Virus record (IMG/VR): IMGVR_UViG_3300029319_000167
Coordinates: 1 to 37,123 of that record
Direction: 5' to 3' (one strand)
DNA from: a virus
DNA: 37,123 bases
The notes beneath the pieces are model-generated. The model saw nothing but the letters and a program-made list of their open reading frames with translations. It ran no database searches and was not told where the DNA came from. Each line of letters starts with the position of its first letter. Within the stretch, counting starts at the first letter, position 1. Positions 1,936 through 29,417 of the stretch are shown one piece after another. Made by a program: the position numbers and the translations under genes.

Positions 1936-1973
1936 TACCCCAGAGTGAGCAGACCAGAGAACACTCTGAGGTA
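1936..1973 (+). terminator. Hairpin ending the replication gene run
   Basis: The arms at 1936-1947 and 1962-1973 pair over 12 positions with one C/A mismatch around a 14-nt loop, starting 2 nt after the last stop codon. No clean T-tract follows, so it may stabilise the 3' end or act with the adjacent hairpins rather than work as a simple Rho-independent terminator. Confidence 0.45.
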
Positions 1974-1975
1974 TC

Positions 1976-2006
1976 GGCTCTAGATTTTGGGGCAGAGACT
2001 AGAGCC
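1976..2006. terminator. Second hairpin, GGCTCTAG arms
   Basis: There is a perfect 8-bp inverted repeat (1976-1983 with 1999-2006) with a 15-nt loop containing TTTT and GGGG. It follows the previous hairpin directly. A third 8-bp pair (2009-2016 with 2037-2044) reaches into the end of the tiny minus-strand gene at 2022-2081. Three hairpins in 110 nt at a meeting point of opposite transcripts suggest bidirectional transcription stopping or RNA end protection. Confidence 0.4.
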
Positions 2007-2021
2007 TAGTAGGCCAACCGC

Positions 2022-2081
2022 TTACTTTTTCTTTGGTGGCCTACCAACTTTAGTTCCATATGTACCCTTACCTTTTGGCAT
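2022..2081 (-). CDS. Tiny basic GRP-motif peptide, copy 1 (19 residues)
   Basis: The frame reads M-P-K-G-K-G-T-Y-G-T-K-V-G-R-P-P-K-K-K and stops at TAA. The first 18 residues are identical to those of a second peptide at 26644-26715, although the two DNA copies differ at many third positions, so the protein sequence is under selection. The V-G-R-P-P-K-K-K end resembles an AT-hook (core G-R-P flanked by basic residues), which binds the minor groove of AT-rich DNA. AAGG lies upstream on the minus strand. The role is unknown; nucleoid or capsid-DNA contact is an inference. Confidence 0.7.
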   Translation of the reverse strand: MPKGKGTYGTKVGRPPKKK

Positions 2082-2097
2082 AACATTTACCTTTTTT

Positions 2098-2373
2098 TTA
2101 ATTATGAAAGAATTTTCTAATTTTGTCCATAGTATTCAACTCATCTGCCCTGTATTTTTTATCTAAAGCAGCTTCTAATTCTATGACTCTACCTAATAGA
2201 CTTGCTAGAAATACATCTTGTTTCATCTGATGTCTTATCAAGTGTGTGCAATATTTTTTTATTCCAACTACATCATCACTTTTTAAAATTTCTCTTACTC
2301 GCATTTCAACCGATAGCTGCAACTCTACAGGTGGCTCTTCGATTTCAATGTTGAGAAATTTTTCTTTAGTCAT
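2098..2373 (-). CDS. Hypothetical helical protein, 91 residues
   Basis: The N-terminal third is acidic (I-E-I-E-E-P-P-V-E), followed by two amphipathic helices. The middle segment C-T-H-L-I-R-H-Q-M-K-Q-D-V-F-L and then R-V-I-E-L-E-A resembles a small helical protein that I have seen in several marine phages, often without a function. The ATG at 2371-2373 overlaps the stop of the upstream gene by one base (TAATG), so the pair is co-translated. The C-terminus is basic. No catalytic motif is visible. Confidence 0.75.
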   Translation of the reverse strand: MTKEKFLNIEIEEPPVELQLSVEMRVREILKSDDVVGIKKYCTHLIRHQMKQDVFLASLLGRVIELEAALDKKYRADELNTMDKIRKFFHN

Positions 2374-2780: not shown

Positions 2781-3029
2781 ATGGCAGAGGAACAAGAAGA
2801 AAAGGAAGGCACGGATTGGGCTGAAATTTTTGGTCATGCTGTCCGATTTATGATTCTTTGTTGGTCGCTTGCAATGATGACTCTTGGATACATGGACAAG
2901 ATCCGCAATGATGGAGCGTTTTTAGCCGGACTCACAAGTGGCGTTTTAGGTTCGTATGGTATCTCCGTTAACAAAAAGAAACCTGTAAACGCTGCTAAAG
3001 TAAATGACACCAAGGTAAATACACAATGA
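2781..3029 (+). CDS. Cassette A two-helix membrane protein, 82 residues
   Basis: An acidic N-terminus (A-E-E-Q-E-E-K-E-G) is followed by two hydrophobic segments (about 18-38 and 46-62) and a lysine-rich tail. The cassette B protein at 29145-29417 has the same order: E-E-Q-D-E-K-E-G, then F-W-S-L-G against C-W-S-L-A, then F-A-A-G-L-L-S against F-L-A-G-L-T-S, then basic residues. Two helices with charged ends and a basic C-terminus match the general plan of class II holins, but that is only an architectural resemblance. The stop overlaps the start of the exported protein gene that follows (ATGA), exactly as in cassette B. Confidence 0.82.
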   Translation: MAEEQEEKEGTDWAEIFGHAVRFMILCWSLAMMTLGYMDKIRNDGAFLAGLTSGVLGSYGISVNKKKPVNAAKVNDTKVNTQ

Positions 3030-3547
3030 AAAAACTATTAGCATTACTATTACTGTTTAGTCCTTCTGTAGCACTAGCAGACATAACGCAAAAGTTTACG
3101 ACATCTGCCCAGATCACGGTAGATATGCCGTACTCTGTCACTAATAAATTAGGCACGACATATTCAATATCAGGTAATAACATAACCCCATCTGTAACTG
3201 TAGGAGACACTACGACATCAGGAAAAATTGGTGGAATTAATCTTGGAAGTTTAAGTAGTGGCGTACCTGCCATGATACAAACTGATAAATCAATTACCAC
3301 AGCAGGTAGTGCATTTTCTCTGACGGAAGCTGTAACAATGGGCGATTCTCAACCTAGTGCAATCACTCCATCGTCAGGCATAGCAGCATTACCACACCTT
3401 GGTGGGCAGACAACAATAGGATCGGGTGGCACATTAGGATCTGGAGCGATGACAAGTTTATCTAGTGGTGTACATACTTGTAGTGGTGCATTTGGATCAG
3501 GCTCTAGTTGCATAGGTTCGACAACAGTAACCATTACCATTGACTAA
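3026..3547 (+). CDS. Exported Ser/Gly/Thr-rich protein, 173 residues
   Basis: A clear signal peptide (M-K-K then a leucine-rich core, predicted cleavage after A-L-A at residue 18) exports a ~155-residue mature protein. The mature part is low-complexity and rich in Ser, Gly and Thr, probably beta-structured, with only two cysteines near the C-terminus (C152, C162) that could pair once in the periplasm. The element A-G-S-A-F-S-L-T-E-A-V (93-103) resembles A-G-Q-P-F-S-L-V-E-S-V in the next gene, suggesting an old tandem duplication. Cassette B has no equivalent. ATGA overlap upstream; 8-nt overlap downstream. Function unknown; outer surface, virion or envelope roles are all possible. Confidence 0.8.
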   Translation: MKKLLALLLLFSPSVALADITQKFTTSAQITVDMPYSVTNKLGTTYSISGNNITPSVTVGDTTTSGKIGGINLGSLSSGVPAMIQTDKSITTAGSAFSLTEAVTMGDSQPSAITPSSGIAALPHLGGQTTIGSGGTLGSGAMTSLSSGVHTCSGAFGSGSSCIGSTTVTITID

Positions 3548-3977
3548 ATTTTGGCTGCTATTAATAATATTATTTCCTGTAAAAACCTTTGCAAATCCAG
3601 TAGTACCTACCTTCCGTACAGGCAGTTCAAGCACAAATTCCCAGACTCAAAGTGTCATAACAGAATCTGTGGTATCTCATCAATTCCGTACAGGGTATTC
3701 TCTAAGCGTATCAGGCACGAACATAGAAAGTGCAGATGTTAATGGTTATATTAACTCAATACCTACGGCAGAAGCCGAACAAACAGTTAATGGGATTAAC
3801 TTTTCATATACAAGTCCTACGTTGGAAGGTGTGCCTAGATGGAAAATAGTAGACGCAGGTCAGCCTTTCAGTTTAGTCGAATCAGTAATTTCTCCCGGAC
3901 TAGATACAATAACCACAATCAACAGGGTCATAAACACAACAACTACAACCACCGTAGAAACCACGTTTGGGCAGTAG
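3540..3977 (+). CDS. Exported protein of cassette A, 145 residues (paralogue of 28783-29148)
   Basis: The start is TTG 3540, the only choice that gives a complete signal peptide (F-W-L-L-L-I-I-L-F-P-V-K-T-F-A, cleavage after residue 18). The mature N-terminus P-T-F-R-T-G-S-S-S-T-N-S-Q-T-Q matches P-T-W-T-T-G-S-S-N-R-T-E-N-T-T of the cassette B protein, and both end with a Thr-rich stretch closing in T-F-G-Q or V-F-S-Q. No cysteines are present. I recall proteins with the same start and end motifs in marine cyanophages, all of unknown function. It overlaps the next gene, whose start is uncertain. Confidence 0.82.
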   Translation: MTKFWLLLIILFPVKTFANPVVPTFRTGSSSTNSQTQSVITESVVSHQFRTGYSLSVSGTNIESADVNGYINSIPTAEAEQTVNGINFSYTSPTLEGVPRWKIVDAGQPFSLVESVISPGLDTITTINRVINTTTTTTVETTFGQ

Positions 3978-4552
3978 TTTTACTTTGCCTATGTCCAACA
4001 AAGGCTTTAGCTAATACAACCGTAGCAAGCCCATCTAGCAACGCACAGGGAACGGTAAATAACAATGCCACCATGATAGCTCCGCAATCTAATCCGCAGT
4101 TTAGGATGTCGCAGGGTATTGTTTGTAGTTCACCTAGCCTTACCATCACACCATTTCTAACAGATTCATGGTCATTTAACCGCCCCATAGAAACTGTGAC
4201 TAGACAAAATATATACAACGAGGATACAGGTGCAATAAAATATGTACAAGAAACACCAAGGTTTGAAAAAGATAATTACAATTTAAACTACGGTATCTCA
4301 GCACAGTTCAGTATTCCGTTAGGCAAAGCACCTGCACTATGTCATAAGGCAACAGAAATAAATATAAAAAATCAGGAATTATTGTATAAGAAAACTGAAC
4401 TAGAGGTCGCTCTGTTTCGGCTAAAAGTATGTGGTGAACAGGCTAAGCTTGGTGTTCAATTCACAGGTAAGTTTGCAACGATATGCGAGGGCATTGCAGT
4501 TACTGTTCCTCCCGGTCAGGTAATCCCTCACTCTCATTCTTTGAAGCCTTAG
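3839..4552 (+). CDS. Exported four-cysteine protein of cassette A (paralogue of 28311-28835)
   Basis: The mature part (after A-L-A at residue 58) shares a strong pattern with the cassette B protein: V-C-S-x-P-x-x-x-I-T-P-F, then F-x-I-P-L-G and a cysteine, then L-K-V-C/L-K-C, then a closing T-I-C/Y-I-C. The four conserved cysteines suggest two periplasmic disulfides. The start is odd. The paralogue begins right at its signal peptide, but here no ATG, GTG or TTG is available there. ATG 3839, with GGAAGG at 3824-3829, adds ~42 Asn/His/Arg-rich residues encoded in a second frame over the previous gene. The 3' end overlaps the opposing gene by 53 nt. Confidence 0.75.
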   Translation: MENSRRRSAFQFSRISNFSRTRYNNHNQQGHKHNNYNHRRNHVWAVVLLCLCPTKALANTTVASPSSNAQGTVNNNATMIAPQSNPQFRMSQGIVCSSPSLTITPFLTDSWSFNRPIETVTRQNIYNEDTGAIKYVQETPRFEKDNYNLNYGISAQFSIPLGKAPALCHKATEINIKNQELLYKKTELEVALFRLKVCGEQAKLGVQFTGKFATICEGIAVTVPPGQVIPHSHSLKP

Positions 4553-5153
4553 ATTTACTTAGACGTTTACCTAATTGTTTTATAGCTGACTTCGCTGCCC
4601 CTTGTATCAAGGGTACAAGAGCAGCAGAACCACCGGCAACCAAGCCAATAACAGTAGTGCTAATAAGTATTTCGGGAGTTCCGATAATACTTTCTCTGAA
4701 TGGTACTTCTGTCCAGACCGGGTCACAAGAGCCATCTATACCTCTTTCATATTTTACCAATCTTTCAATTTTTTTATCATTTCTGTAATCTCCTTCCCTA
4801 AATGGTGCGTCCTTTGGAGGACAGGGTTTGTATTCTTCTTCTTTTTTTTCATTGTTTTGTGTGTCTGTTTTAGGTGGTTCACTAGTTGGCATCTCACTAT
4901 CGTTAGCAAGATTAGGCATCTCTTCTGTAATTGTTAATTGATCTGGTACATAATTCAATGGATTAAAACTAGGGTACGGACAATTTGTCACGACCCCATT
5001 TGGATCTTCTATTATTAAATTTCTATTGCCTGTATTCTTTGTATCTTTGTGGTAGTAACTGCAACCTATAACTTGTACATTTGAATGCCCATAGTCAGGC
5101 ACATAGGTATATGGGATATGAACATCAGGTATATGTATCTCAGGTATTTCCAA
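4500..5153 (-). CDS. Opposing Pro/acidic cassette protein with hydrophobic C-terminal segment, 217 residues
   Basis: TTG start at 5153, immediately after the TAA of the upstream gene, giving M-E-I-P-E-I-H-I-P-D-V. The N-terminus is built of Ile-Pro repeats, followed by D-T-K-N-T-G-N and D-P-N-G-V-V motifs, an acidic proline-rich linker, a C-P-P-K motif and a C-terminal hydrophobic segment (about 159-187) with a lysine-rich tail. I remember marine cyanophage proteins of the same plan; function unknown. The cassette B counterpart (27854-28336) keeps the Ile-Pro start, the acidic linker and P-E-V-I then hydrophobic then basic end, but lacks the central motifs. Tail-to-tail overlap with the last exported gene is conserved in both cassettes. 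Confidence 0.8.
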   Translation of the reverse strand: MEIPEIHIPDVHIPYTYVPDYGHSNVQVIGCSYYHKDTKNTGNRNLIIEDPNGVVTNCPYPSFNPLNYVPDQLTITEEMPNLANDSEMPTSEPPKTDTQNNEKKEEEYKPCPPKDAPFREGDYRNDKKIERLVKYERGIDGSCDPVWTEVPFRESIIGTPEILISTTVIGLVAGGSAALVPLIQGAAKSAIKQLGKRLSKSKASKNESEGLPDREEQ

Positions 5154-5375
5154 TTATTTTTTTGGAAGTGTTGGTATAGATATGCCAGTTGTTTTTGGTA
5201 ATGCGTTATCCATTACATTAGGTAATAGCCCCTTTACCTCGCCAAGTATAGAGTTCATAATCTTAGCTTTAAACTGTTCGCTGCTTACATATTTGTATGT
5301 AAAAAAACCACCGCCTAGTATTCCCAAAACTAAGACCGTAGTTAAAATTGTTAAAGCATCAAGAATTTTACGCAT
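5154..5375 (-). CDS. Small single-pass membrane protein, 73 residues
   Basis: A basic start (M-R-K) and one membrane segment at residues ~9-29 (T-I-L-T-T-V-L-V-L-G-I-L-G-G-G-F-F) are followed by an amphipathic helix (F-K-A-K-I-M-N-S-I-L-G-E-V-K-G) and a Pro-rich end (S-I-P-T-L-P-K-K). I recall a similar family, with a membrane anchor and proline-rich tail, in marine phages upstream of proteins like the 217-residue neighbour. It is adjacent to and probably co-translated with that gene. Its ATG overlaps head to head with a plus-strand ATG (CATG at 5373-5376). Function unknown. Confidence 0.75.
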   Translation of the reverse strand: MRKILDALTILTTVLVLGILGGGFFTYKYVSSEQFKAKIMNSILGEVKGLLPNVMDNALPKTTGISIPTLPKK

Positions 5376-5505
5376 GATTAAAGAACAGATAGCACGAGCT
5401 ACAGCACTTATGTCAGTAGTCGTATTGCTACTTATCGTAGCAATCAGCCCTCTCTATGTCACTATGGGTTTAATGACAAGAGAAGTTATGTCGCAGAAGG
5501 ATTAA
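5374..5505 (+). CDS. Small membrane protein, 43 residues
   Basis: ATG at 5374 sits back to back with the start of the minus-strand membrane gene, sharing the bases CATG. One hydrophobic segment (T-A-L-M-S-V-V-V-L-L-L-I-V-A-I-S-P-L) occupies residues ~10-28 with short charged ends. The frame continues open upstream only as antisense of the neighbour, so 5374 is the sensible start. The last 20 nt overlap the 3' end of the first tail-region gene on the other strand. It has no clear Shine-Dalgarno site, so it is less certain than its neighbours. Confidence 0.5.
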   Translation: MIKEQIARATALMSVVVLLLIVAISPLYVTMGLMTREVMSQKD

Positions 5506-5779
5506 GACTATCTGCACTTGCTTTCCATTTAGTAACTACATCAGATGTCCATGTAGCATTAATAATTGCTTGTACATCTGACGGATAACCACTTATATCT
5601 GTTTGGTTATATGTACCATCAGGAGAATAATAGCCATGAGTTATTGCGTGTCTGGTAAAAGTTTTACTTAATTGCACGCCATCTTTTGCTACGACAGTTG
5701 CTTGACGTAATTGTATTCCAAATTTGTCAACACCTACAACTTCAATTTTGTCGTAGTTAGTTTCTTCTGTTAATGCCAT
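5486..5779 (-). CDS. Tail-fibre-region hypothetical protein, 97 residues
   Basis: The pattern I-E-V-V-G then I-Q-L-R-Q-A-T-V-V-A-K-D-G-V-Q-L-S-K-T-F-T-R-H followed by V-Q-A-I-I-N-A-T-W-T is one I know from small genes at the end of tail fibre clusters in marine phages; it carries no named function. The N-terminal half should be beta strands and the C-terminal part helical. It is the last gene of the leftward late operon, 56 nt downstream of the fibre stop at 5836. The gap 5780-5835 shows no strong hairpin or promoter. Confidence 0.75.
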   Translation of the reverse strand: MALTEETNYDKIEVVGVDKFGIQLRQATVVAKDGVQLSKTFTRHAITHGYYSPDGTYNQTDISGYPSDVQAIINATWTSDVVTKWKASADSLNPSAT

Positions 5780-5835
5780 TAGGATTAATCTCCGATTAAA
5801 ACAGGTTTAGGCTTAGTTTACAGACGTAGCTCGGT

Positions 5836-7224
5836 CTATTCAATTCGATACCATCCATTAATGGCACAATCAAAACCAGACCCACCATTAGAACCACTAA
5901 AATCACTATGTCCAGTATTTATTCTCTTACGTATTCCATAATAATATTTTGATGATCCGTATGTATCTGCGTATACATTTTCTCCACCGCTAGAACAAGA
6001 GTTCATCCAACAACCTAAGTGTGATTCTAAAAGACTTTCAGTTCCACCTCTGTCTGCATAAAAAGGCATAATACCAAATATTATTCCATTTCCATTACTC
6101 GAACTATAACTTCCAATTTTTATTCTCATGTGAACGTAAACCATACTTCCAATCTTGACGTATTTACCTCCGTTATATGTCATGGTTGGAGCAGCGTTAG
6201 CATCACTACCACTACCAAGATATCCATAACCATTTAAAACATTTATGTTATCAATCGTACCTTCTTCGTAGTCATCTAAAACATTAGCGTCTGCTGTATC
6301 AGAGCCAAACAAAATACCGCCTTGAACCCTGACACCATTTGTTAGAGTTTCTAGTTTTTTTACGTTGTTATGATATAGCTCAACTGCTCCGTCTGGTATA
6401 AACTTAGCCATGTACTCACTTTGAGTTTTCATTATATCTACATTGTCACTTGCAGAACCACTTATAATTAAACGAGAACTTTCGTTTAATACTTTAGTTA
6501 AAGTTCCAGTATGCTCAAGTGTAAAATCATTTCCATCTCCAAGTCTTAGCTGTTCGCCATCAGTAATTTTAATATTGTTACCATTACTATCCAAGTCTCC
6601 ACCTAGCTGTGGACTTGTATCTTCTACAACATTGCTTAATCCACTAGCAGGGAGAGATTCAAAACTAGGGTCTGCTCCGTTGTTTGCTCTAAGAAATTTA
6701 CCATCATTATTAGTATCTCCATGTGGTAGCTTTGCAAGTGTTACTTGTTGATCTAATATGTTTTCTGCTTGGATTGCGTTGTCAGCTATTTGACCATTTG
6801 TGACACAATCATTAGATAATTTACTTGTTGTTATACTTCCATCTGCTACTGACCCTGCTATATTCAACTGCCCTGCCATACTGCTATGACTACTGCATTG
6901 GTAGTACAAAGTATCAGGTGCATCATGCGGTACTGTAAATACTATCTCTGTACCACCTGCACCACCATTGTTTGTAACTCCTGTGTTATAAGCATCATTC
7001 GTGCCACCATTAGCAATACTGGTTTTTATATAAAAAGGGTGTGCGCCATTACTATTTCTATTTTCAAAAATATAAGTATGACCTCTGCTAAGAGTTAACG
7101 TAGGGTCATTGACTGCACCGCTTAGTCCTGGCCCAGTAAAAGTGTAATCACTTGAACCATTAGCACCTAAGACATATCTAAGGGTATCTTCAATAGCCCT
7201 TGATGATACTTGTGTTAAAGGCAT
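5836..7224 (-). CDS. Tail fibre/receptor-binding protein with cupredoxin-like domain, 462 residues
   Basis: Residues ~25-123 look like a cupredoxin fold: G-H-T-Y-I-F-E-N then A-H-P-F-Y-I, and later Y-Y-Q-C-S-S-H-S-S-M-A-G. The possible type-1 copper ligands are H62, C110, H113 and M116; H-to-C spacing is 48, against 47 in plastocyanin. Residues ~124-300 hold fibre shaft repeats (S-I-T-T-S-K-L, D-T-S-P-Q-L-G-G-D-L-D-S, G-K-F-L-R-A-N-N-G-A-D-P). The C-terminal ~150 residues after L-D-D-Y-E-E-G-T-I are probably the receptor-binding tip. It likely forms a trimeric side fibre attached through the gp17-like protein. Whether copper is bound is unknown. Confidence 0.83.
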   Translation of the reverse strand: MPLTQVSSRAIEDTLRYVLGANGSSDYTFTGPGLSGAVNDPTLTLSRGHTYIFENRNSNGAHPFYIKTSIANGGTNDAYNTGVTNNGGAGGTEIVFTVPHDAPDTLYYQCSSHSSMAGQLNIAGSVADGSITTSKLSNDCVTNGQIADNAIQAENILDQQVTLAKLPHGDTNNDGKFLRANNGADPSFESLPASGLSNVVEDTSPQLGGDLDSNGNNIKITDGEQLRLGDGNDFTLEHTGTLTKVLNESSRLIISGSASDNVDIMKTQSEYMAKFIPDGAVELYHNNVKKLETLTNGVRVQGGILFGSDTADANVLDDYEEGTIDNINVLNGYGYLGSGSDANAAPTMTYNGGKYVKIGSMVYVHMRIKIGSYSSSNGNGIIFGIMPFYADRGGTESLLESHLGCWMNSCSSGGENVYADTYGSSKYYYGIRKRINTGHSDFSGSNGGSGFDCAINGWYRIE

Positions 7225-8293: not shown

Positions 8294-10678
8294 TTAGATA
8301 GTTGCGATTAGCTTACCATTTGCATTTAAGCTAAAGGTAAAACCTGTAGCTGCAAAAATAACATCTTCAAAGTTATCATAATCTGTTCCAGATATATTGT
8401 CCACACCGCCATTAGTGCTTGTCACGATAAGATTGCCATTACTATCTGTATTAAATCCATACACTTCTGGGGAAGATGCCTTTGCAAAACTTAAGTTACC
8501 AGCTCCATCTGTTTTTAAAAATTCCCCTGCACTCCCATCTTCGGGAAGAATATAATTACTATCTTTAGTAAGTGTTGTTGGTGCGTCAAATGAAATACCA
8601 TAAGTATTGCTAGGGTCATTATCCCAATTAACTTTTCCATTTATTTCTACAACATCATTAGTAGAAGTAAGAACCCCACTATTACCATTAGGATATACTA
8701 AGCTATCATTACTTATTGTCTCAAACGTAGGATCTGCACCATTATTAGCTCTTAAAAATTTGCCATTATTACTAGATGTACCATGCTCTAATTTTGCAAG
8801 TGTTATAGCTTCGTCTTGTATTTTTTGTGTTGATATAGAATTGTTTTGTAGGATTGCGTTTGTTACTGTGTTGTCGCTTGGAGTTCCAATGTTTACAGTA
8901 GAACCCATTACGACAGCGTGATAGCTTGCACCAGTAGGAGGTGCAGCAGCCAGCTTAACTGTTGTACCATCTAAAGCAAAGCCTTCTCCAGGAGTAGATG
9001 TACCAGCGTTAGGTTTCTGTAGTACACCTTCTATTATTAGTAATATTTGCTGGGCTGAAGTAGGTGCATTACTAAGGGTAAAGTTTGTAGTACTGCCATC
9101 AAATGCAGGGCTAAGTGTAGATATAAAGAAGTTACCTATACTTTGTGTCTCTTCAAACGCACTTGTAGTTCCGTTATAAACATACAATTTACCTAAAGTT
9201 GTATGCCAAAATAAATCTCCAGAGTCATTATTAGTTGTAGGAAAACTAGAACCTACTCTATATCTTTCTCCAAAATCATTTATGTCTCCACTTAAACCTA
9301 CCAGGTCATCTTCTTTAAGAGTTGCTTTATGGTATGTATAGTTTTGACCTGATCCTGTAGAAACGACAAGAAATCTAACACCAGCAGCAACACTAGATCC
9401 ACGAAAGTTTGTGGCAATACCAGATATATTTACTGTTGTTCCGCCTACTGTTTGACCAGATGCAGTTCCAGTACTGCTGACAGCCATTCCGCCAGCGTCC
9501 GCAATACTTATTACGACACCTGATTGTGGTTGAGTATTAGGAAAAGAACTTTCATTTGCTATTGCTTCCAAACCACCAATAGGTGCTAACTGTGCAGCTA
9601 CATAATCTACGATTGCTCCACTTGTAGGAAACTTAGTGTCGTCATCAGTTACAGATGTTGCTTTTTGCATACCATCTAACTGGTTAAGATCTGCTATATC
9701 AGATGTAAGAGCAGTAGTATCCGCTAATTTTGAAGCTGTACCAGATTGCATAGTTGCTAAAGTTTGCAGCTCTGCATCTGCTAACTTGTTATTAGTAACT
9801 GAGCTATTTGCTATTTCACTTGTGCTAACTGAGTTTGGTGCAAGATGACTAGCATCCAAAGGACTACCAGCTATAAGTGATTTTATCTCTGCTATTGTTT
9901 GATCGGTAGTTGCATTTGCCTCGATAGCATTTAGCTTTGCAAGTAAGGCATCAGTAAAAGAGTTTGTATCAGAGTTTGCTTCGTAAGCTGTTTTTATCTC
10001 TGCATTTGTTTGATCTGCAGTTGCTCCACTTTCTATTCCATCTAGTTTTGTACCATCAGCAGATACATCCCTTCCGTCAACAGTTCCAGATGTAGCGATA
10101 TTCTGACTACCAAAATCAGGAGATATTTTAGTTCCATCTATAGCTGCGCTTGCGTTTACGTCAGCATTAACAATACTTCCATCTGCAATTTGTGTTGACG
10201 TAATACTACCGACTCTTTCTAAAAATGCTTTAGTTACTGCATCTTGAGCATTAGTAGGATCTGAAACATTGATTATCGGCTTATTCTGTGCGTCTTGTCC
10301 TTGCGGTGTATTTTGAATACCTAAAGCAGCTTCATCTTTAGCCTCTTGTATTCCGTATAGCAGTTGTAATACAGCAGTATCCAGGTCGGCAGCAGTTAAA
10401 GTAGAGCCATCTACAAAATCAACAAGGGCATTAGTTAATGGAGTGTCTCTGCTAATCTCAATAAGCACTCCAGTTTTAGGCGCACCAGTAGCTTCTTGAG
10501 TAGATGTTGCTGAACTAAGAGTATTAAACTCAATAGTCGTATCATTTACAAAGGTAAAGTCAGTATTAGCTACTAAGCCAAGTGCGACAACTATATGATC
10601 CTTTTTGACGTATGGAAAAGGAATTGTAAATTGTTTGGTAGATCCGTTTCCAGTACCAGTAAATGAAGCAAAAGGCAT
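8294..10678 (-). CDS. T7 gp17-like tail fibre protein, 794 residues
   Basis: The first ~130 residues (F-T-G-T-G-N-G-S-T-K-Q-F-T-I-P-F-P-Y-V then I-E-I-S-R-D-T-P and L-T-A-A-D-L-D-T-A-V-L-Q) are the T7 tail fibre N-terminal domain that attaches the fibre to the tail tube. The middle is a long shaft of short repeats such as I-K-T-A-Y-E-A-N-S-D-T and S-I-T-S-T-Q-I-A-D-G-S-I, and two linker modules, G-K-F-L-R-A-N-N-G-A-D-P and G-E-F-L-K-T-D-G, occur near the end. It is longer than T7 gp17 (553). TAATG overlap with the giant ejection protein gene couples it to the virion operon. Distal fibre genes follow it. Confidence 0.9.
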   Translation of the reverse strand: MPFASFTGTGNGSTKQFTIPFPYVKKDHIVVALGLVANTDFTFVNDTTIEFNTLSSATSTQEATGAPKTGVLIEISRDTPLTNALVDFVDGSTLTAADLDTAVLQLLYGIQEAKDEAALGIQNTPQGQDAQNKPIINVSDPTNAQDAVTKAFLERVGSITSTQIADGSIVNADVNASAAIDGTKISPDFGSQNIATSGTVDGRDVSADGTKLDGIESGATADQTNAEIKTAYEANSDTNSFTDALLAKLNAIEANATTDQTIAEIKSLIAGSPLDASHLAPNSVSTSEIANSSVTNNKLADAELQTLATMQSGTASKLADTTALTSDIADLNQLDGMQKATSVTDDDTKFPTSGAIVDYVAAQLAPIGGLEAIANESSFPNTQPQSGVVISIADAGGMAVSSTGTASGQTVGGTTVNISGIATNFRGSSVAAGVRFLVVSTGSGQNYTYHKATLKEDDLVGLSGDINDFGERYRVGSSFPTTNNDSGDLFWHTTLGKLYVYNGTTSAFEETQSIGNFFISTLSPAFDGSTTNFTLSNAPTSAQQILLIIEGVLQKPNAGTSTPGEGFALDGTTVKLAAAPPTGASYHAVVMGSTVNIGTPSDNTVTNAILQNNSISTQKIQDEAITLAKLEHGTSSNNGKFLRANNGADPTFETISNDSLVYPNGNSGVLTSTNDVVEINGKVNWDNDPSNTYGISFDAPTTLTKDSNYILPEDGSAGEFLKTDGAGNLSFAKASSPEVYGFNTDSNGNLIVTSTNGGVDNISGTDYDNFEDVIFAATGFTFSLNANGKLIATI

Positions 10679-13600
10679 TAACCTGTCCTAACGTCTGTGT
10701 TTACTATAGATCGCCAAGCCTCGACTTGGTTAGGGAAATCATTAGTAGTTTGTGCTACTTCTTTATTTAATATTCTATTTTCATTTTGTAAATGTTGCAA
10801 ATATGGTCTTGTATTAATGAAATATCTTCTTGCTGCATCCCTGTATTTTTTAGCTAGTTGGTCTATAGCATATAATTTTGTCAGCATTGCACGTTTTGAC
10901 ACTATATTTCTAGGCAAACCAGTTGCGTCAAATTCTGGATCATAGTCAGGTAATTCTTTATAGGCATCACTATTAATTAATCTTTCCAGGTCTTGCGCAA
11001 AAGTTAAGCCACTTCCGTTTGGATCTTTGAGAGTAGTCATAAGTTCTCTAAACTCCATAAATTCCTGGTTACTCATTACATAACCTTTAATACCTAAGCT
11101 AGTTCTTGTACTAAATCTTGGGTATGCACCAAAACCATGTAGCCTGGATAACTCTTTATAAACAGTTCCGTTTCTTTCTTTTGTTGGTCTAAACATTGCC
11201 AATGGATGTATGTTCATTACCAATGATCTTAAAAGAGGATTTTTGATATTTTCAGCTCCATAGGCATAGTCATATTCTACTGGCTGTCCATAAATAGGAT
11301 CTAGTTCTGGTGTTCCAAATAGATTTTGTAATCCAGGTATTTCACTTAATAACTCCATTGCAAGGTCGGATGCTGTTGCATACCAGGTTCTTTCTCCTGT
11401 TGTTGCATTTACCGATTCATTTATTAAATATCTTTTATTATCAAATCCAATTCTTGTTTGCCTTAACAAAGCTAATGGCATTTTCATGTAACGAGCAATA
11501 GTTGTTTCAAGCATATTGCGTTTACCAGTATGTATATATTGGTTGCCACTTTCTTCTGTTTGCATTAATTCTGTAATTAAATCATAAAAATTACCAATAT
11601 TAGCCATAACACTTTTTCTAAAATAACCAACAGTATTTTCTTTAACAGTATCCCCTATAGCTTTAGCTGCTGTGTAACCATCAAATCTTCTTAAGGTATG
11701 AGCATTAGCAATAATATATGCTTCCTGAGCCTTATCGCTGTAGCTAATTTCATCATTTTCTGTATATGGTATTTCAAATTGATCGTCTCTAGGCATACGT
11801 TTTATAGCATCTACATATCCTCCTATTGAACCAAAAATAAAACTAGCGGTATCAAACATATCTAATGAATACCAATCTGACCATTCATTACTTCCAGGAG
11901 TTCTAAATCTTATTGCGTTTGGAGGTCTGTGCATATATCTATTTAATCTATCTTTATTAGGGTTTGTACTTTGTGGACCACTAAATTCAACAAGTCCTGT
12001 AGCTACAGCTCCAATACCTAGCGCAAACAAATGCTGACTTGTAGCTATTTCCCCTATAGCTCTTTCTCTTTGGAATAAATCTTCTGATGTTATATCTCTC
12101 CAATAACTATCTACCAATCTGTTAGTTGGTAAAGGCAAATGCCTTAATGCGCTTTTTACCAGGTTTAAAGGAGTTCTGTTTGTTGGGAATACGACACCTA
12201 AAAGGGGTACTGCTCTTGTAGCTTTATGTATTCTTTTTGAAGGATAATTTAAAATTCTTTGACCAAGTTCATCAAAGCCTGTTTCAGTAGAAGATAAACC
12301 TTTTCCAAAGCCTCTAAATTGATCGTTAGTAGGTTCAGATGCCTTAGTAAAATATTCTAAATTGTTTAAATCTTCGTCATTTCTATATTGTTCCGCAAAT
12401 TCTAAAATGTCCTCTGGTTGTGTTAATCCTTTTTCTTGCGCCCTTCTTATTCCGTATTCAACTGTTCTTTCATTTCTATCGACCTCTATGCTATCGGTAA
12501 AGTTTACATAATCAACAGCCTGTCTTGCGTGAACACTATCCATAAATCCACCTTTTATTACGCTTCCATCTGGCATTTCTACATCTGCTAATGATCTATT
12601 TAATGCTGCTTCTGCTTTTTTATGTGCCTCGTTAAATATTCTAGGGTCGTGCATATCAAATCCTTGCGCCATCTTTTGAAATAATTCTTGCTCCATTAGC
12701 CTGGCATATTCATAGGAAGGTGCAACTGTCATACCAACTAACGTATCTAACCCACTCATAACTCTCGAAGCTCCTGATCCAAAAGTAGTTTTAACTCCTT
12801 TAGTTAAATAATGTGTTGCCAATATTACTGGATTTGTTTCTGGATTTGTTAAGTGTTTAGCTACACCCTTACCTCCACTTAACATTCTCCTTGCTTCGTC
12901 ATCTATTTCTTCTTGAACATAATCATCAAATCTTCTTATTTTTGGTTGTTTATTTGGATTTTTACTTTTTCTATAGCCATCTGCCTCGAAATAACCTCTA
13001 TTGATATTTCCAAAAACTTCATCATGTTTTACAGCAGATAAAGCCAGCCTAAAAGCGTGTGCAGCATGAACAAAATATCTAAGATACATAGTCATATTTA
13101 GTTGTTGTCTCATTTTTGCCATTCTTGCTCCATCCATATCTCCAGCAGCTAAAGCCTTGCGTTTTGTCTTTCCAGCTCCCATAAATTGAGAATAAGGTAA
13201 AGTAACAGCTCTAAATAAACTGCCACCTAAAACTTTTCCAAGTGTTGCAGAGTTCAAGAAAATACCATTTCTTGCTATTTGAGCAATTTTTTCTTGCGTT
13301 AACTGACCTTTACCTACATTGTCTAAGCCTTTAGCAAAATTAGTCATAAAATTATTCATTGACTTAGTTCTGTCTTTATACAAATAAAGTGATTCAGCAA
13401 TAATTTCCATAATTTCTCTAGCTCTTTTTGTAGGTTTGTTATTCATAACGCTTTCATAATCTTTTTTACTCATTAAGTTTTCAAAAATGTTTTCTTGTTC
13501 TAATACAGCTTTTTTAAATACACCAGGAATAGATTGTTGTTCTGGCATATCTGCTGGATCTGAACCTTCTTGTATTTGCGCTTTTGAGTTAATTATTTTA

Positions 13601-16600
13601 TTAGCTTGATTATTGTCAGGAACATAAATAATGTCGCCTGGCTGACCAAACTCTGTACCATCTACTCTAATTCCTTGATATTTCTTAGAAGCTAAATATT
13701 CAGCTAATGCTCCTTTTTGTTCAGCAGTTAATTTGCCATCTAAAACAGCACCAACATTTTCTATATTTAATTCTTGCAATAATTTAGAAAGTGATTTATT
13801 TTGAGAAGTTAAATCAAGAATCATAATATCTGCATTTACGACTCCATCTACATAAGTACTTTTCTCTCGGACTTCTCCTCCGTCCATAGATTTAAAATAT
13901 GTACCTTTTCCTAGTCCTTTATCCTGGACTAATCCAGCTTCCTCTACTCCTTTTTCAAGAGCTGTCGTACCTGTTTTTGTTGTAGCTACATCTACTTCTA
14001 TATGCTGGTATGGAGGTATAAACATTTCTTGACCGCCCAAGAAATCCATTTGTTGCATCCTTAAGTTTTGCGCAGAAGGTCTATTAACCTCAGCTATTGC
14101 AACGCTTACCTTCATTGCATCTTCCCATAAAGATATTAATAATGATTTTGATGTACTATCGTTAGGATTTAGTTTTATATCTAACGCTACTTCTTTCATC
14201 TGCTGTATCTGTACGTCTCTTTGTAAGATTATTGCTGCCTGGGCGACTTGTTTTTGCAATGCGTTTTTATCTCCTCTCATTGCTTTTTTGTGCAAAGCTA
14301 ATATTTCGTCTGTTCTAAAATTACTTTCTGTTATTAATTGCAAGCCTAATCTTTTCATGTTTTCCATAGTAAAAGAAGGTACTTTTGTAGCATCTTCTCT
14401 TGTTCCTAATAGTTCAAACAAGCTAGTTTCAAACGCTTTATTAGTAGCAATTAAATCGGCTTCGCTAGTCGGTATATATTTCTTGCCATCTGGATTTAGT
14501 TTTCTGTTTATTAATCTTCTATATAATCCGTCCATAGCTTCTTCAATAGTCATATCTCCGTCTCTTATTGCAACCTTTATAGTCTCTAAGTTTTCTGTAA
14601 ACTCGTCTGGATTTAATGCAAAACTAGCTGGCTCTGGAGCTGTGTTGCCTGGTATCTTTTGAGCAAAGCGTTCAGATCTAGGAGTTCTTTCTGCCAACCT
14701 TCCAGCTTGTGCGTCTCTAAATATATCTTTGTAAGTTTTAAAGCCATAACCCGAAAGTTTGTTATTTATTTTTTCTGCAATTTCTTGTAATTTTTTGAAT
14801 GGTTGTAGCCAAGTAGGTTCTTTAGCAAAGTCAAGCTCGTCAAATACTGAAAAAGCAAATGCCTGGACTTCTCTTTCACTCATTCTTTTAGCACCATATA
14901 AATATTTTTGATGCTTAGGATAAAAAGATGCAACTATTTCTCTTAACTGTCTATCAACTGCTGGACTATCTAATAGTTTTTGCTCTTTAAGAGTTAAATA
15001 TCTATCTTGTATTCTATGGAATGATTCATGTCTCAATGTCTGCATCATTGATCCAAAATTTATAAAATGACTTTTGTAAGTCATTGCAAGAACTATTAAA
15101 TCTTTTTGAGGAGTTGAACCGAACCTAAATAAACCTTTAGCTCTACCAGTTTTACCTATTGCACTAGGAGGTAAACCATAAGCTGATGCTGCCTTTGCAC
15201 TTATCTTGGGTTCGATAGCATCAACAAGACGTAAGTTTTGGACATTCGCACCAGCAATTCTTCTAGCTATATCAACTAATTCTTGCGCCTGTTGCTCAGT
15301 AAGATTTACGTCAGAATAAACATGATCGTTACCCATGTTTGTATATATATCATCTTCAAGCGCAAACTCTAATTGCTCATTGTTTTTAGGATCTAATGGG
15401 TCAAAGTTTTTAGGATTTGTCGATTCTTTATATTCTTTGTTGTATTTAGCCTGGAGTTTTTCGTTTGCTTTTCTTACGTTTTCGTTTTCTATCTCTCTTA
15501 AATTATCTAATTCAAAATCTCCATCATCAGCTCTAGGATCTCTTTGAACATACCCATCCCCATCAACATAATTATTTCTTATATTTACTGTGCCATCTTT
15601 ATTAACACTACCTTTCTTAACTAATGGCTCTCTCATTATTTCTGTATAAGCCATGCTGTTTCTTAAGGTAAGTTCTCCGTCAGCAAATTCAGCAGCAGCG
15701 CTTAAACTCTTTAGTTCGTTTTTCATAGCCATATATGCCTTATGTCTTGCACCAGAACTAATCCCAATTTCGTCTAAGAAAGCATTAAATTCAGCATCCT
15801 TTTTAGATTTTTTACCCCACCTATTACCTGTAATATAAATAGCTCTATCAATATCGTTAGCAAATGCAATTGTATATTGACCATATCTAGGCTTTGCTGT
15901 TCCAGCCCATTTAGTAGAATTAAAATTTAACTTAGGATATTTACGCATTAAGATTGGATATAGTAATCCAAAATCTGCGTCATTTAATTCCGAAGCAGAA
16001 TTAAACTTATAGCCTCCTTCAGTTATATATGGAAAAGTTTTTCTTTTTGTAGATGTAACTTTAGCGTCTAATGTCTTACCAATTTTTGAATGGTTTTTGT
16101 TTAGCGAGCCATTATTAGCTACTAATTCATCTTCCAGGTCAAATATTTCTTGTTCTGTATATCCCTGCAATAATTCATCTTTTTCTTTATTTACGACTTT
16201 TTGTACTTCTTCTCTTTTAATTGGCTCAGGTTTTTCGTTTCTTAAAAGATCGTTAGCTTTTTCATTCAACTTAGTATCAATTTCTTTTTGTACTCTTGCT
16301 GGTTCTGATTCAATTTTAGTTAAGGGTGCGTCATCCCCTGCCATAGTTGTTTTTATTAATTCAAAATTATCTTTTACTATTTGTGTTGCTGATATTGGGC
16401 CAGTTTTCATTGAAAGAGCTAATTCATTAATTAATCTGTTTGTATCTGAAACTGAATACGCTAAACCCTCAAACCTTTCAACTTGTCTTTCTGCCTCAAG
16501 CCTTCTATCAACTGAATCGTCATAAGAAATTTTATTGCCTTCTACTTTTTCAATAGCCGCTTTTTTATTTTTTTGCGTTACAGCTCTTAAACCACTTATT

Positions 16601-26034: not shown

Positions 26035-26643
26035 CTACCTAGATAAAGCGTCAGAAGGTCTATAAGTTCTCATTGGATTTACTCTTCGATTATGACCTCT
26101 AAGAATATTGTGATCGCTTAATTGTGTTTCTTCTTCTAAAAATTGTGATCTAACTTCTTGCTCAACTAATAAATTTATTTCTGTTAAATCTTTACTGCCA
26201 ATCATAGACTCCTGGAGTTCTCTGCCAGCTTTAGTCATTATGTAAACCCTAGCGTGTTCGGGTAATTCTTCCCAATCAAGAATAATAGTTATATCTGCTT
26301 TTAAATCTTGTTGAAATTCGTATGTGTTATTTTTGCGATCATAAAGCCTTGATCCTCTTTGCACTACATCTACGTCTGGATAATCGTAAGGATCAACATA
26401 AACTCTAGTGGTGCTAGTACCAACTGAAATTTCTTTTGTTGTCGAATCTCTCATTAAGTCAACTTCATAGTCAGTATTAAAAGACCAACCTTCAGTTTGC
26501 AATTTACGACTAACGCTGTTAATTGTGGTTTCTGCTAAATTGCCTAAGCCAAGTAAGCCTTGCAAAGAGTTAACAGGAGCTTCTCCCATCATCTGCAAGG
26601 CTTTATTGACCGCTTCTAGTTTTGAGGTTCTAGCGAGTGCCAT
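26035..26643 (-). CDS. Tail tubular protein A, T7 gp11-like adaptor, 202 residues
   Basis: The start (S-K-L-E-A-V-N-K-A-L-Q-M-M-G-E-A-P-V-N), then R-K-L-Q-T-E-G-W-S-F-N-T and Y-D-Y-P-D-V-D-V-V then Y-D-R-K-N-N-T-Y are hallmarks of T7 gp11 (196 residues), the dodecameric adaptor joining portal and nozzle. The ATG follows directly on the stop codon of the 23-residue basic peptide gene (26644). It ends 2 nt before the nozzle gene. The presence of this adaptor means a portal must exist, although none is seen in the window. Confidence 0.94.
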   Translation of the reverse strand: MALARTSKLEAVNKALQMMGEAPVNSLQGLLGLGNLAETTINSVSRKLQTEGWSFNTDYEVDLMRDSTTKEISVGTSTTRVYVDPYDYPDVDVVQRGSRLYDRKNNTYEFQQDLKADITIILDWEELPEHARVYIMTKAGRELQESMIGSKDLTEINLLVEQEVRSQFLEEETQLSDHNILRGHNRRVNPMRTYRPSDALSR

Positions 26644-26715
26644 TTACTTTTTCTTAGTACCTTTTTTTGGAGGTCGTCCAACTTTTGTACCATAAGTTCC
26701 TTTACCTTTAGGCAT
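26644..26715 (-). CDS. Tiny basic GRP-motif peptide, copy 2 (23 residues)
   Basis: Residues 1-18 (M-P-K-G-K-G-T-Y-G-T-K-V-G-R-P-P-K-K) are identical to the peptide at 2022-2081; this copy then adds G-T-K-K-K. It lies between the capsid terminator and the adaptor gene, its stop touching the adaptor start. The G-R-P flanked by lysines resembles an AT-hook. A position immediately behind the major capsid gene suggests a minor virion component or DNA-contacting protein expressed with the tail genes, but that is inference. Confidence 0.75.
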   Translation of the reverse strand: MPKGKGTYGTKVGRPPKKGTKKK

Positions 26716-26723
26716 AATAATAA

Positions 26724-26741
26724 GGGAGTAAGTTTACTCCC
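26724..26741 (-). terminator. Hairpin terminator after the capsid gene
   Basis: This is a perfect 8-bp inverted repeat (26724-26731 with 26734-26741) 13 nt past the capsid stop. Read on the minus strand it gives GGGAGTAAACTTACTCCC followed by TTATTATT, a Rho-independent type. T7 has its T-phi terminator in the same place behind gene 10, where partial read-through lowers tail gene expression relative to capsid. Confidence 0.7.
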
Positions 26742-26754
26742 CTATATTAACTAC

Positions 26755-27741
26755 TTATGAGTTAGACGCATATACTTCGATAGCGCAATCTGGGCGCAGT
26801 ACACCTGTACCATGAGCCATAGATCCGACCATAAATACACCCTGGTATAACGCATGAACATCATTTCCAGTTTGTTCCATTTTAAGATCCATTAACTTAA
26901 CTGTACCAACTGCATCTGGTGTAAATGCAAGTCCGATATTATCGGTGTAGTCAGCATGATAAGTATTGTTCTCTCCAGTAACAGCAGATCTGTTTGACTT
27001 AGGTAGGTTATTGGATTTAATAATTGAAATACCAGCAACCTTAAGAACTGTACCTTCTGCGTATGCTCCAGAACCACCCCAATCTCTGTTAAGAACATCT
27101 GTAGTTCTTGCAAGTTTGTAGTAATTTGCTGGATCAAGTGCAAAGTATCTAGCATTTTCTGGGATGTTATTCTCATCAAATGTCTGTGCAACTGTCCATA
27201 GAGCAGTAACAAGGTCAGCACCAGTAACAGCAGCAACCGCAGCAGCAGTATTAGCAGTACCAGACTTAAGAATCTTAACTCTTGTACCTCCAGGTAAGTC
27301 TGTATTAAAGTTCGTACCTGTTCTAGCAGCTTGAGCTATTGTTGCAGCTACGTTTTCATCAAAACGATAGGCTAGGGCATTACCCATTTCCTCTGTATAT
27401 TTTGACCTCACATCATAGTGATTCTTAGCCTCGTCAATGTCAGCCAAAAATACTTGAGATACAAGTTTGTCGTCAATATTTATAGTAGCCTCAGCGTGTT
27501 TGATGCTATCCCCTGTCAATTGTGTGCCAGGTGTATGATAGGAAGTTGAGCTGAGTCCAATAATTGGGAATTGTGCGGATTTTCCTGATTGAATCGTCCG
27601 AACTGTATGCAATGACTCGAATATTGTAGCTTTACGGAACGCTGATAGCACCTCTCCACTCCACACTTTTAAGAAAAGTGCGTCATAAGACGTACCAGTA
27701 GCATTGACCAAGCCGAGTCTTGAAGGACTAAAGTTAGCCAT
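26755..27741 (-). CDS. Major capsid protein, T7 gp10-like, 328 residues
   Basis: The N-terminal region (F-L-K-V-W-S-G-E-V-L-S-A-F, then S-G-K-S-A-Q-F-P-I-I-G), H-T-P-G-T-Q-L and the I-D-D-K-L-V-S-Q-V-F-L-A-D-I-D-E-A-K segment are typical of T7 gp10 HK97-fold capsid proteins; the length (328) is close to T7 gp10A (345). It builds the icosahedral shell. It is followed by a hairpin terminator. Upstream on the minus strand I see no Shine-Dalgarno sequence, unusual for the most abundant phage protein. No scaffold gene precedes it; cassette B does instead. Confidence 0.94.
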   Translation of the reverse strand: MANFSPSRLGLVNATGTSYDALFLKVWSGEVLSAFRKATIFESLHTVRTIQSGKSAQFPIIGLSSTSYHTPGTQLTGDSIKHAEATINIDDKLVSQVFLADIDEAKNHYDVRSKYTEEMGNALAYRFDENVAATIAQAARTGTNFNTDLPGGTRVKILKSGTANTAAAVAAVTGADLVTALWTVAQTFDENNIPENARYFALDPANYYKLARTTDVLNRDWGGSGAYAEGTVLKVAGISIIKSNNLPKSNRSAVTGENNTYHADYTDNIGLAFTPDAVGTVKLMDLKMEQTGNDVHALYQGVFMVGSMAHGTGVLRPDCAIEVYASNS

Positions 27742-27853: not shown

Positions 27854-28336
27854 ATGGACGAATATCTACCGCAAATCCCAGAAATAGATGTATTAATACC
27901 GCCTAAAACAATTTTTTATCCACCTGTGGCAGAGATTCCATATTTAGACCCTGTACTTCTTCCAAGTCTGGAACAGGTAGAGTCGGGTTTGGGAGATCAG
28001 GAATCTTCTTCTGAAGAAGAAAAAGCATCTTCAACGGAGGAAGCGTTAGAGCTAACACCAGAGACAATACCGACAAACCTGCCAAACACCAAAGACCTTT
28101 TATCAACTGAAGAACCTGTAGCTACGTTTAATATACCATTTTTTGGAGAAATGCCTATTCCAGCGCCAGAAGTTATTGCTTCAAGTGTAATAGCATCTAG
28201 CGTAAGTGCCACCGCAGCAGTAACAGGTTCAATAGTTTTACAAAGTGTTATTAATCAACTAAAAAAAATAATGACAAAAATATTTAAAAAGGTACTTAAG
28301 AAAGAAATTACTAATCAGAAAAAAGATCAGGATTAG
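27854..28336 (+). CDS. Opposing Pro/acidic protein of cassette B, 160 residues (paralogue of 4500-5153)
   Basis: It begins M-D-E-Y-L-P-Q-I-P-E-I-D-V and continues with I-P-P-K-T-I-F-Y-P-P-V-A-E-I-P-Y, an Ile-Pro-rich start like its cassette A counterpart. A Ser/Glu-rich acidic linker follows (S-S-S-E-E-E-K-A-S-S-T-E-E), then the hydrophobic stretch from P-E-V-I-A-S-S-V to I-V-L-Q-S-V (about 109-136), and a strongly basic end (K-K-I-M-T-K-I-F-K-K-V-L-K-K). Copy A has P-E-I-L-I-S-T-T-V-I then K-Q-L-G-K-R-L-S-K-S-K in the same places. It is on the opposite strand to the surrounding late genes. Likely membrane-inserted; function unknown. Confidence 0.75.
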   Translation: MDEYLPQIPEIDVLIPPKTIFYPPVAEIPYLDPVLLPSLEQVESGLGDQESSSEEEKASSTEEALELTPETIPTNLPNTKDLLSTEEPVATFNIPFFGEMPIPAPEVIASSVIASSVSATAAVTGSIVLQSVINQLKKIMTKIFKKVLKKEITNQKKDQD

Positions 28337-28835
28337 CGTTAACATAAGTTCGTATATTAATGACATCACTACAGATGTATGCGTATTTAGAAGCAGGGTT
28401 TATCATGTAGCCTGATGCGTGAAGCTGACTACACTTCAAAATACGAACAAGCTGTTTATCATGCACTTGCTTGTCTAACTCTTCTATGGCTAACTCTAGC
28501 TTTACTTTTGCTAACTCGTTACAAGTTTTATTATCTCCCAGGGGTATCATAAAACTCATTTGCAATCCCCATCCTTCGTTTATAGAATATGTCTCTTCTC
28601 CCTGTGCATCATTACCTGTATAAAAAGGAGTTATTGCCATAGTTGGTTGACTACAAACTAAATTTCCAAACTGCTGCTTACCTGTCATTCCATTATTAAT
28701 ATTCATATTCTGATTAATAATACTAGAATTACCAATCGCATTTGGTTGAGCCTGTACGTTTGTATCGCCTTCGGCTTTTACTTTACTGACTAAAGACAGA
28801 CAAAGAAGTGATAACGCTAGTAGTCGTAATCGCAT
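28311..28835 (-). CDS. Exported four-cysteine protein of cassette B, 174 residues
   Basis: The signal peptide is M-R-L-R-L-L-A-L-S-L-L-C-L-S-L-V-S-K-V-K-A (cleavage after residue 21). The mature protein has an Asn/Gln-rich start (N-S-S-I-I-N-Q-N-M-N-I-N-N-G), then V-C-S-Q-P-T-M-A-I-T-P-F, F-M-I-P-L-G-D-N-K-T-C, L-V-R-I-L-K-C and Y-A-Y-I-C. The four cysteines and their surroundings match the cassette A protein at 3839-4552, so disulfide-stabilised periplasmic or surface location is likely. The middle (E-L-A-K-V-K-L-E-L-A-I-E-E-L-D-K) is a charged helix. It starts 53 nt inside the previous gene and overlaps the opposing gene by 26 nt. Confidence 0.83.
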   Translation of the reverse strand: MRLRLLALSLLCLSLVSKVKAEGDTNVQAQPNAIGNSSIINQNMNINNGMTGKQQFGNLVCSQPTMAITPFYTGNDAQGEETYSINEGWGLQMSFMIPLGDNKTCNELAKVKLELAIEELDKQVHDKQLVRILKCSQLHASGYMINPASKYAYICSDVINIRTYVNANPDLFSD

Positions 28836-29148
28836 CTGTTTGTGTAATTTCTTCTAATTTAGTTCCTGATGCTCTAGTAGTCACATTTAATGACCAATCA
28901 GCAGTAGCAGTATTAGGAGTAAAAATTGCATCTGTAGCCGTTATTCCTCCGTTAGTAGCGCTTGTAACAGCAATGTTTGAAGCTTCCCAAGTTTCCAGAG
29001 CAGACCCATATTTCTGAGTAACTATGGTGCGATTTATAGTCTGAGTAGTATTCTCTGTGCGGTTGCTAGAACCAGTAGTCCAAGTTGGAATCCCATTTGC
29101 GTAGCAAGGTGCAATTAAAAATAAACCTAGTAAGAGTAATTTTTTCAT
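28783..29148 (-). CDS. Exported protein of cassette B, 121 residues (paralogue of 3540-3977)
   Basis: The signal peptide M-K-K-L-L-L-L-G-L-F-L-I-A-P-C-Y-A is cleaved after residue 17. The mature protein starts N-G-I-P-T-W-T-T-G-S-S-N-R-T-E-N-T-T-Q and ends T-S-V-I-T-S-L-S-V-F-S-Q, the same beginning and end as cassette A. The C-Y-A-N end is not a lipobox of standard form. No cysteine remains in the mature part. Composition (Thr, Ser, Asn, alternating hydrophobics) points to beta structure. It is co-translated with the membrane protein through ATGA (29145-29148). Function unknown. Confidence 0.83.
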   Translation of the reverse strand: MKKLLLLGLFLIAPCYANGIPTWTTGSSNRTENTTQTINRTIVTQKYGSALETWEASNIAVTSATNGGITATDAIFTPNTATADWSLNVTTRASGTKLEEITQTDAITTTSVITSLSVFSQ

Positions 29149-29417
29149 TTGATTCCTACATTTGTGTCTTTATTATCCACTATTTTAGGCGCTTTGCCAT
29201 TATTGCTATTGTTACCTTTGCTTCCTTTCTTAATATTCAGCCCAAATTGTGCGCTGACCGCACTCAATAATCCAGCAGCGAAGGTCGTATCAATTTGGCG
29301 AGTAGGGTTGGGATTAAAGTACGACCAAGAAATTACCCCTAAACTCCAAAAAAGAATAATAAGCTGCACCACATTGGCAATCAGACTATTACCTTCCTTT
29401 TCATCTTGTTCTTCCAT
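29145..29417 (-). CDS. Two-helix membrane protein of cassette B, 90 residues (paralogue of 2781-3029)
   Basis: N-terminal E-E-Q-D-E-K-E-G, hydrophobic helix 1 (V-V-Q-L-I-I-L-F-W-S-L-G-V-I-S), a short loop with N-P-N-P-T, helix 2 (T-F-A-A-G-L-L-S-A-V-S-A-Q-F-G-L), and a basic, Asn/Lys-rich tail. This is the same plan and several identical residues as the cassette A protein. The topology could be a small holin-like or pore-forming protein, or an anchor for the exported partners; neither is shown. It is first in the leftward arm and diverges from the 53-residue gene at 29463. Confidence 0.82.
   Translation of the reverse strand: MEEQDEKEGNSLIANVVQLIILFWSLGVISWSYFNPNPTRQIDTTFAAGLLSAVSAQFGLNIKKGSKGNNSNNGKAPKIVDNKDTNVGIK

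Follow-up and report, generated by a model that had tools for sequence, protein, structure and literature searches.

A widespread family of tiny polycationic proteins encoded near the head and packaging genes of tailed phages

Why should a phage sequence encode the same very short, basic peptide at two places, and what might such a peptide do? The stretch of DNA analysed here, which we refer to as the window, is the IMG/VR record IMGVR_UViG_3300029319_000167, with a length of 37,123 nucleotides. As described in the initial annotation, both reading frames are present on the minus strand (Table 1). The encoded peptides are 19 amino acids (copy 1) and 23 amino acids (copy 2) in length, are identical over residues 1-18, and end in KKK and KKGTKKK, respectively. 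The 54 shared nucleotides harbor 11 differences, spread over 10 codons and all synonymous. By the Nei-Gojobori method, 11 of 13 synonymous sites are changed and none of 38 non-synonymous sites, an excess that bears out the earlier proposal that selection has retained the peptide. None of 200,000 simulations that placed 11 substitutions at random preserved the peptide, and a DNA pattern for MPKGKGTYG, which matches twice in the window, found no match in 100 shuffles. The shuffles, the substitution simulation and the purely synonymous differences rule out a chance or non-coding origin.

Table 1. Positions in the window of the two micro-genes, their neighbours and associated features
Feature	Position	Strand	Remarks
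Copy 1 micro-gene, MPKGKGTYGTKVGRPPKKK	2022..2081	-	19 codons + stop; last gene of leftward operon
91-aa gene	2098..2373	-	constant upstream neighbour of copy 1
Switch from one phage lineage to another	6250..6400	.	in tail-fibre gene (5836-7224); identity drop versus contig 3300037962_000017
Tail-tube protein A (gp11-like) gene	26035..26643	-	PHROG 446, E 1.9e-48
Copy 2 micro-gene, MPKGKGTYGTKVGRPPKKGTKKK	26644..26715	-	23 codons + stop; stop abuts ATG of tail-tube protein A
Gap between capsid gene and copy 2	26716..26754	-	holds a conserved terminator-like hairpin, GGGGAGTA...TACTCCC with a U-rich end; from fold and alignment
Major capsid protein gene	26755..27741	-	PHROG 267, E 1.7e-79

The two copies belong to a much larger family. 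IMG/VR was scanned with a pattern for MPKGKGTYG alone, in which GRP was not part of the query. At least 119 contigs carry this string, and among the matches listed all 119 have GRP at residues 13-15. A second pattern, in which lysine was excluded at position 3, gave 120 contigs, 118 of them with GRP. From these sequences the N-terminus of the family can be written as MPxGKGTYG[S/T/K]xxGRPxKK, followed by a variable lysine-rich tail, and both copies in the window share MPxGKGTYG, GRP at positions 13-15 and such a tail. Across 219 distinct members, collected with a regular expression that fixes GTYG and GRP and thereby makes these columns invariant by construction, position 3 is found as K, M, A, S or R, position 10 as S, T or K, position 11 mostly as K, and position 12 as V, K or R. 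The median length is 29 amino acids. Among short members the net charge has a median of +12, lysine makes up 37% and acidic residues are almost absent. The tails differ; one module, LTAKQKTLPxALQKKIMKSK, recurs among them, and the longest of a few extended forms reaches 316 amino acids. Divergent tailed phages thus share a micro-protein family that is very widespread and strongly conserved but for the most part unannotated. The peptide is thus conserved far beyond its own genome, the outcome on which the initial annotation had made its case depend.

The peptide has no match in Pfam, PHROGs or the PDB, although very short queries limit the sensitivity of Pfam. BLAST of the consensus peptide, a very short and lysine-rich query, found nothing in phage and plasmid records, and a search on the peptide strings and partner motifs found no paper in the literature covered. 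A host gene is ruled out, as a scan of 84,980 species, each represented by a single genome, yielded only 6 matches. One of these is without GRP and is put down to chance, and the rest lie on MAG contigs, several of which have, by eye, portal-, terminase- or capsid-like ORFs.

Selection was also assessed at loci fetched through neighbouring genes, either the 91-aa gene or that for tail-tube protein A, so that the choice of loci was independent of the peptide. The gap between the capsid and tail-tube genes holds a micro-gene in all 42 tail-tube A relatives at 71% identity or above, as 38 outright matches, 3 that are cut by a contig edge but agree where visible, and 1 in-frame variant. In the same gap of 38 more distant tail-tube A relatives the micro-gene is absent. 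Among 80 relatives of the 91-aa gene, the micro-gene is found in 57, a shorter peptide in 16, a lost or remnant form in 3, and a slot that is cut off in 4. The pN/pS values, 0.07 for the slot beside the 91-aa gene and 0.17 for that beside the tail-tube gene, show that purifying selection acts on the peptide at loci picked without reference to it. The shorter peptides of the copy 1 slot are MAYKKSYGKPKPPKK, MPKKSYGKPKPPKK or MPGKKYGKPKPPKK, which end in YGKPKPPKK and have no GRP. This alternative form, of 14-15 amino acids and the pattern M(AY/P/PG)KK(S)YGKPKPPKK, follows the 91-aa gene in L348-L444, and a scan of the collection for YGKPKPPKK returned only 20 contigs, mostly ones already known from the 91-aa slot.

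Leaving the copy 2 slot aside, a Shine-Dalgarno-like motif precedes 214 of 249 members, compared with about 19% of random ATGs, and copy 1 itself has an upstream AAGG of this kind. The micro-genes are therefore probably translated, as far as such signals indicate. In the copy 2 slot the motif was found in none of 38 cases, so that copy 2 is more securely conserved than it is translated. In phage records, no annotated feature lies beneath most of the matches, in line with the earlier remark that gene callers usually miss such tiny genes: the family is annotated as a 'hypothetical protein' in HTVC022P, HTVC115P and C75C1, and is without a feature in the six other records that were opened. A gene of often fewer than 30 codons, conserved in many divergent phages beside the packaging machinery, is thus missing from most annotations.

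Copy 1 is the final gene of the late operon, apart from the head genes. Two hairpin-like inverted repeats, possibly a bidirectional terminator, can be seen by eye at window positions 1937-2015, where genes ending at 1933 (plus) and 2022 (minus) converge, and are present in relatives too. The hairpin ahead of copy 2 is conserved in 13 relatives, with 97% of cells paired and one compensated pair, and a comparable hairpin is found at the same place in P-SCSP1u. It recalls the terminator that T7 has behind gene 10. With a terminator-like hairpin upstream, copy 2 is probably dependent on read-through for its expression.

The presence of two copies in one record is a separate matter. The nearest orthologue of each copy lies in the copy's own slot (the 91-aa slot for copy 1, the tail-tube slot for copy 2) and shows 0 differences, and comparisons across the slots give at least 11 differences for copy 1 and 8 for copy 2. 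As each copy is nearer to the orthologues of its own slot, a recent or local duplication is ruled out, and the copies represent two separately conserved loci. The initial claim of two copies in one genome stands to the extent that both are in the window and that each, taken singly, is confirmed in other contigs, but their pairing is insecure since two lineages meet within the fibre gene. The window is 100% identical to contig 3300037962_000017, from another sample, over positions 596-2773 and 99.3% identical over 2825-6384, beyond which identity drops to 85% and 78%; that contig runs on into genes of a phage type whose capsid belongs to another family and whose head/tail type is different. Between about 6.4 kb and 37 kb the window follows a lineage of T7 type, and this part carries a partial RNA polymerase gene (35397-37121). 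The pairing thus reflects either a recombinant or an assembly chimera, and for the pairing alone we hold it an even question whether the window is a chimera and no phage has both copies. The switch of lineage points towards a chimera, as does the count of records, in which only the window among 120 with a match (136 scanned, many of them fragments) has two copies. The exact join was found in no other contig, in a search that may omit near-identical records. Against this, tail fibres are natural spots of recombination, and the diverged contig L473 likewise joins the N-terminus of the window's fibre to left-module genes. Each lineage also brings its own version of a three-gene cassette, with a DUF6450-type, a PHROG 650-type and a PHROG 848/1755-type gene, at 2781-4552 (plus) and, on the opposite strand, at 28311-29417 (minus) of the window; a third arrangement of such cassettes lies beside the terminase genes in L455-L459.

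When the closest long genes on either side of the micro-gene are compared with PHROGs, the most frequent families are the small and large terminase subunits, portal/head-tail adaptor, scaffold and capsid, in tallies of family matches where one protein may count in several families. In a control, the terminase, portal, scaffold and capsid families are far rarer among distal genes of the same loci. The nearest long ORFs are on the strand of the micro-gene in 364 of 431 cases, and the micro-gene is usually single in a record. The same peptide family is found, unannotated or as a hypothetical protein, in the head-gene region of P-SCSP1u, S-SBP1, SS120-1, CRP-171, HTVC022P, Jormungand and HTVC115P. 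The isolate P-SCSP1u mirrors the copy 2 slot, with capsid, hairpin, micro-gene and then tail-tube A. In the other six, by contrast, the micro-gene is upstream of the capsid gene, lying between scaffold and capsid in CRP-171, SS120-1, HTVC022P, Jormungand and S-SBP1 and after portal in HTVC115P. Because the gene can follow portal, scaffold or capsid, neighbour terminase or close a late operon, the suggestion that the peptide marks a module boundary finds little support. The window ORFs that were scanned include neither a portal nor a scaffold gene; in relative G001 both are on the plus strand after the RNA polymerase gene, which is where the window record ends. The virion gene region of the window also contains a 2894-aa ORF (10678-19362, minus), a considerable size given a podovirus record of 37 kb.

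Coding, purifying selection, placement by head and packaging genes, usually one detectable copy per record and a movable position are established for the family, which, copy 1 itself apart, is encoded among head and packaging genes as a virion protein would be. The charge of the peptide, together with where its gene lies, on which strand and how freely it changes place, favors a late, trans-acting peptide that binds DNA or the head. The reading that we prefer, with slightly less than even confidence, is that a late polycationic peptide binds phage DNA in trans during packaging or head assembly. Both sites would then be genuine micro-genes that are translated and belong to a single widespread polycationic family, and the peptide would be made late, together with the structural genes. 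As a trans-acting basic peptide, it would bind phage DNA through its GRP/KK part, by charge neutralisation and perhaps in the minor groove, and this contact would aid packaging or head assembly. The initial suggestion that the peptide could bind phage DNA in the capsid would fit the placement by head and packaging genes. Other small basic proteins encoded nearby speak for the preferred reading, and the distance of copy 1 from the head genes speaks against it. The peptide may also be carried in the virion, and the window would hold both copies with each joined lineage bringing one at its own locus. Full tryptic cleavage leaves peptides of at most 6 residues, so that routine proteomics would probably miss the protein. 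If it does bind packaged DNA, the chemistry of the phage head includes a basic peptide that is likely to have been missed by annotation, tryptic proteomics and cryo-EM alike. The capsid of P-SCSP1u is reported to be without decoration proteins (PMC10575957), which counts against an ordered cement role only. P-SCSP1u, HTVC022P and CRP-171 are cultured carriers, and the family is therefore directly testable.

In the main rival reading the peptide serves assembly as a cofactor that binds to the portal, terminase, scaffold or capsid protein, and its basic tail is secondary. GTYG and the N-terminus are conserved more strictly than charge alone needs, which points to a specific partner, and the combination of an invariant N-terminal motif with changeable tails, including the recurrent module, would suit docking, as would the position of the gene by portal, terminase and scaffold genes. 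However, the same motif is found beside unrelated head types, and a common partner would need to be very highly conserved. One long form matches a scaffolding family (E 8e-4), but weakly and within a lysine-rich stretch. On balance we regard docking as unlikely, if a serious contender.

The peptide was first described as AT-hook-like; a canonical AT-hook, recognising the minor groove of AT-rich phage DNA, is improbable. The description holds in part, in that GRP with basic residues on both sides, the likeness to Pfam AT_hook, is conserved in nearly all members, and RGRP is found in 58 of 219 distinct members. The RGRP core is absent from both copies, however, where the first core arginine is valine (VGRP), and V or K occupies this site in most other members. 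The Pfam AT_hook profile gave no match even with an RGRP member, although very short queries limit its sensitivity. The AT-hook reading is weakened by the VGRP of the window, by the restriction of RGRP to a quarter of distinct members, and by the GRP-less peptides in 16 of 80 relatives at the 91-aa slot. To our knowledge, AT-hooks have no long invariant N-terminal part such as the MPxGKGTYG of this family.

A late host-directed peptide, for example one active on membranes or ribosomes, would be short, strongly cationic and placed in a late operon, as here, but placement tracks head and packaging genes rather than lysis genes, and this reading is more doubtful still. Least credible is a leader peptide that regulates translation of the next gene in cis: the stop of copy 2 abuts the tail-tube A start and a conserved hairpin precedes copy 2, yet the downstream gene varies between lineages, copy 1 has no gene downstream on its strand for transcription to reach, and what is conserved is the N-terminal amino acids.

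DNA binding by the peptide in packaging or head assembly, as preferred above, invites comparison with protamine-like, DNA-condensing peptides, which are very short, polycationic and presumed to be counter-ions to DNA. The micro-proteins are likewise short and polycationic, but are rich in lysine rather than arginine and have a strictly conserved motif. Other small basic proteins of unrelated sequence, DUF6321 (PF19846; an assignment checked on the S-SBP1 protein) and ANIHAKR-type proteins, are encoded in the same head-module region of P-SCSP1u, S-SBP1, HTVC022P and Jormungand. Of 288 members whose surroundings were scanned to a distance of 1.5 kb, 26 have an ANIHAKR-type motif nearby, 22 MSAAYWA and 12 a DUF6321-type motif, and none of these was found in 100 control segments. 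It is conceivable, although we think it rather unlikely, that marine tailed phages have a protamine-like system in which interchangeable, mostly unannotated head-module micro-proteins neutralise or organise the packaged DNA; just as tentatively, the set would comprise the GRP peptide, DUF6321, ANIHAKR and K/G-rich 20-mers, all of them polycationic. In cyanophage-like relatives of the window, a different 20-aa ORF, MHKKGSKGHKGGKGGKKKGY, and an ANIHAKR protein share the capsid/tail-tube gap. DUF6321, an ANIHAKR-type protein and a 20-aa K/G-rich ORF are also seen in the head-gene region of the marine podoviruses L122, L125, L126, L129 and L202.
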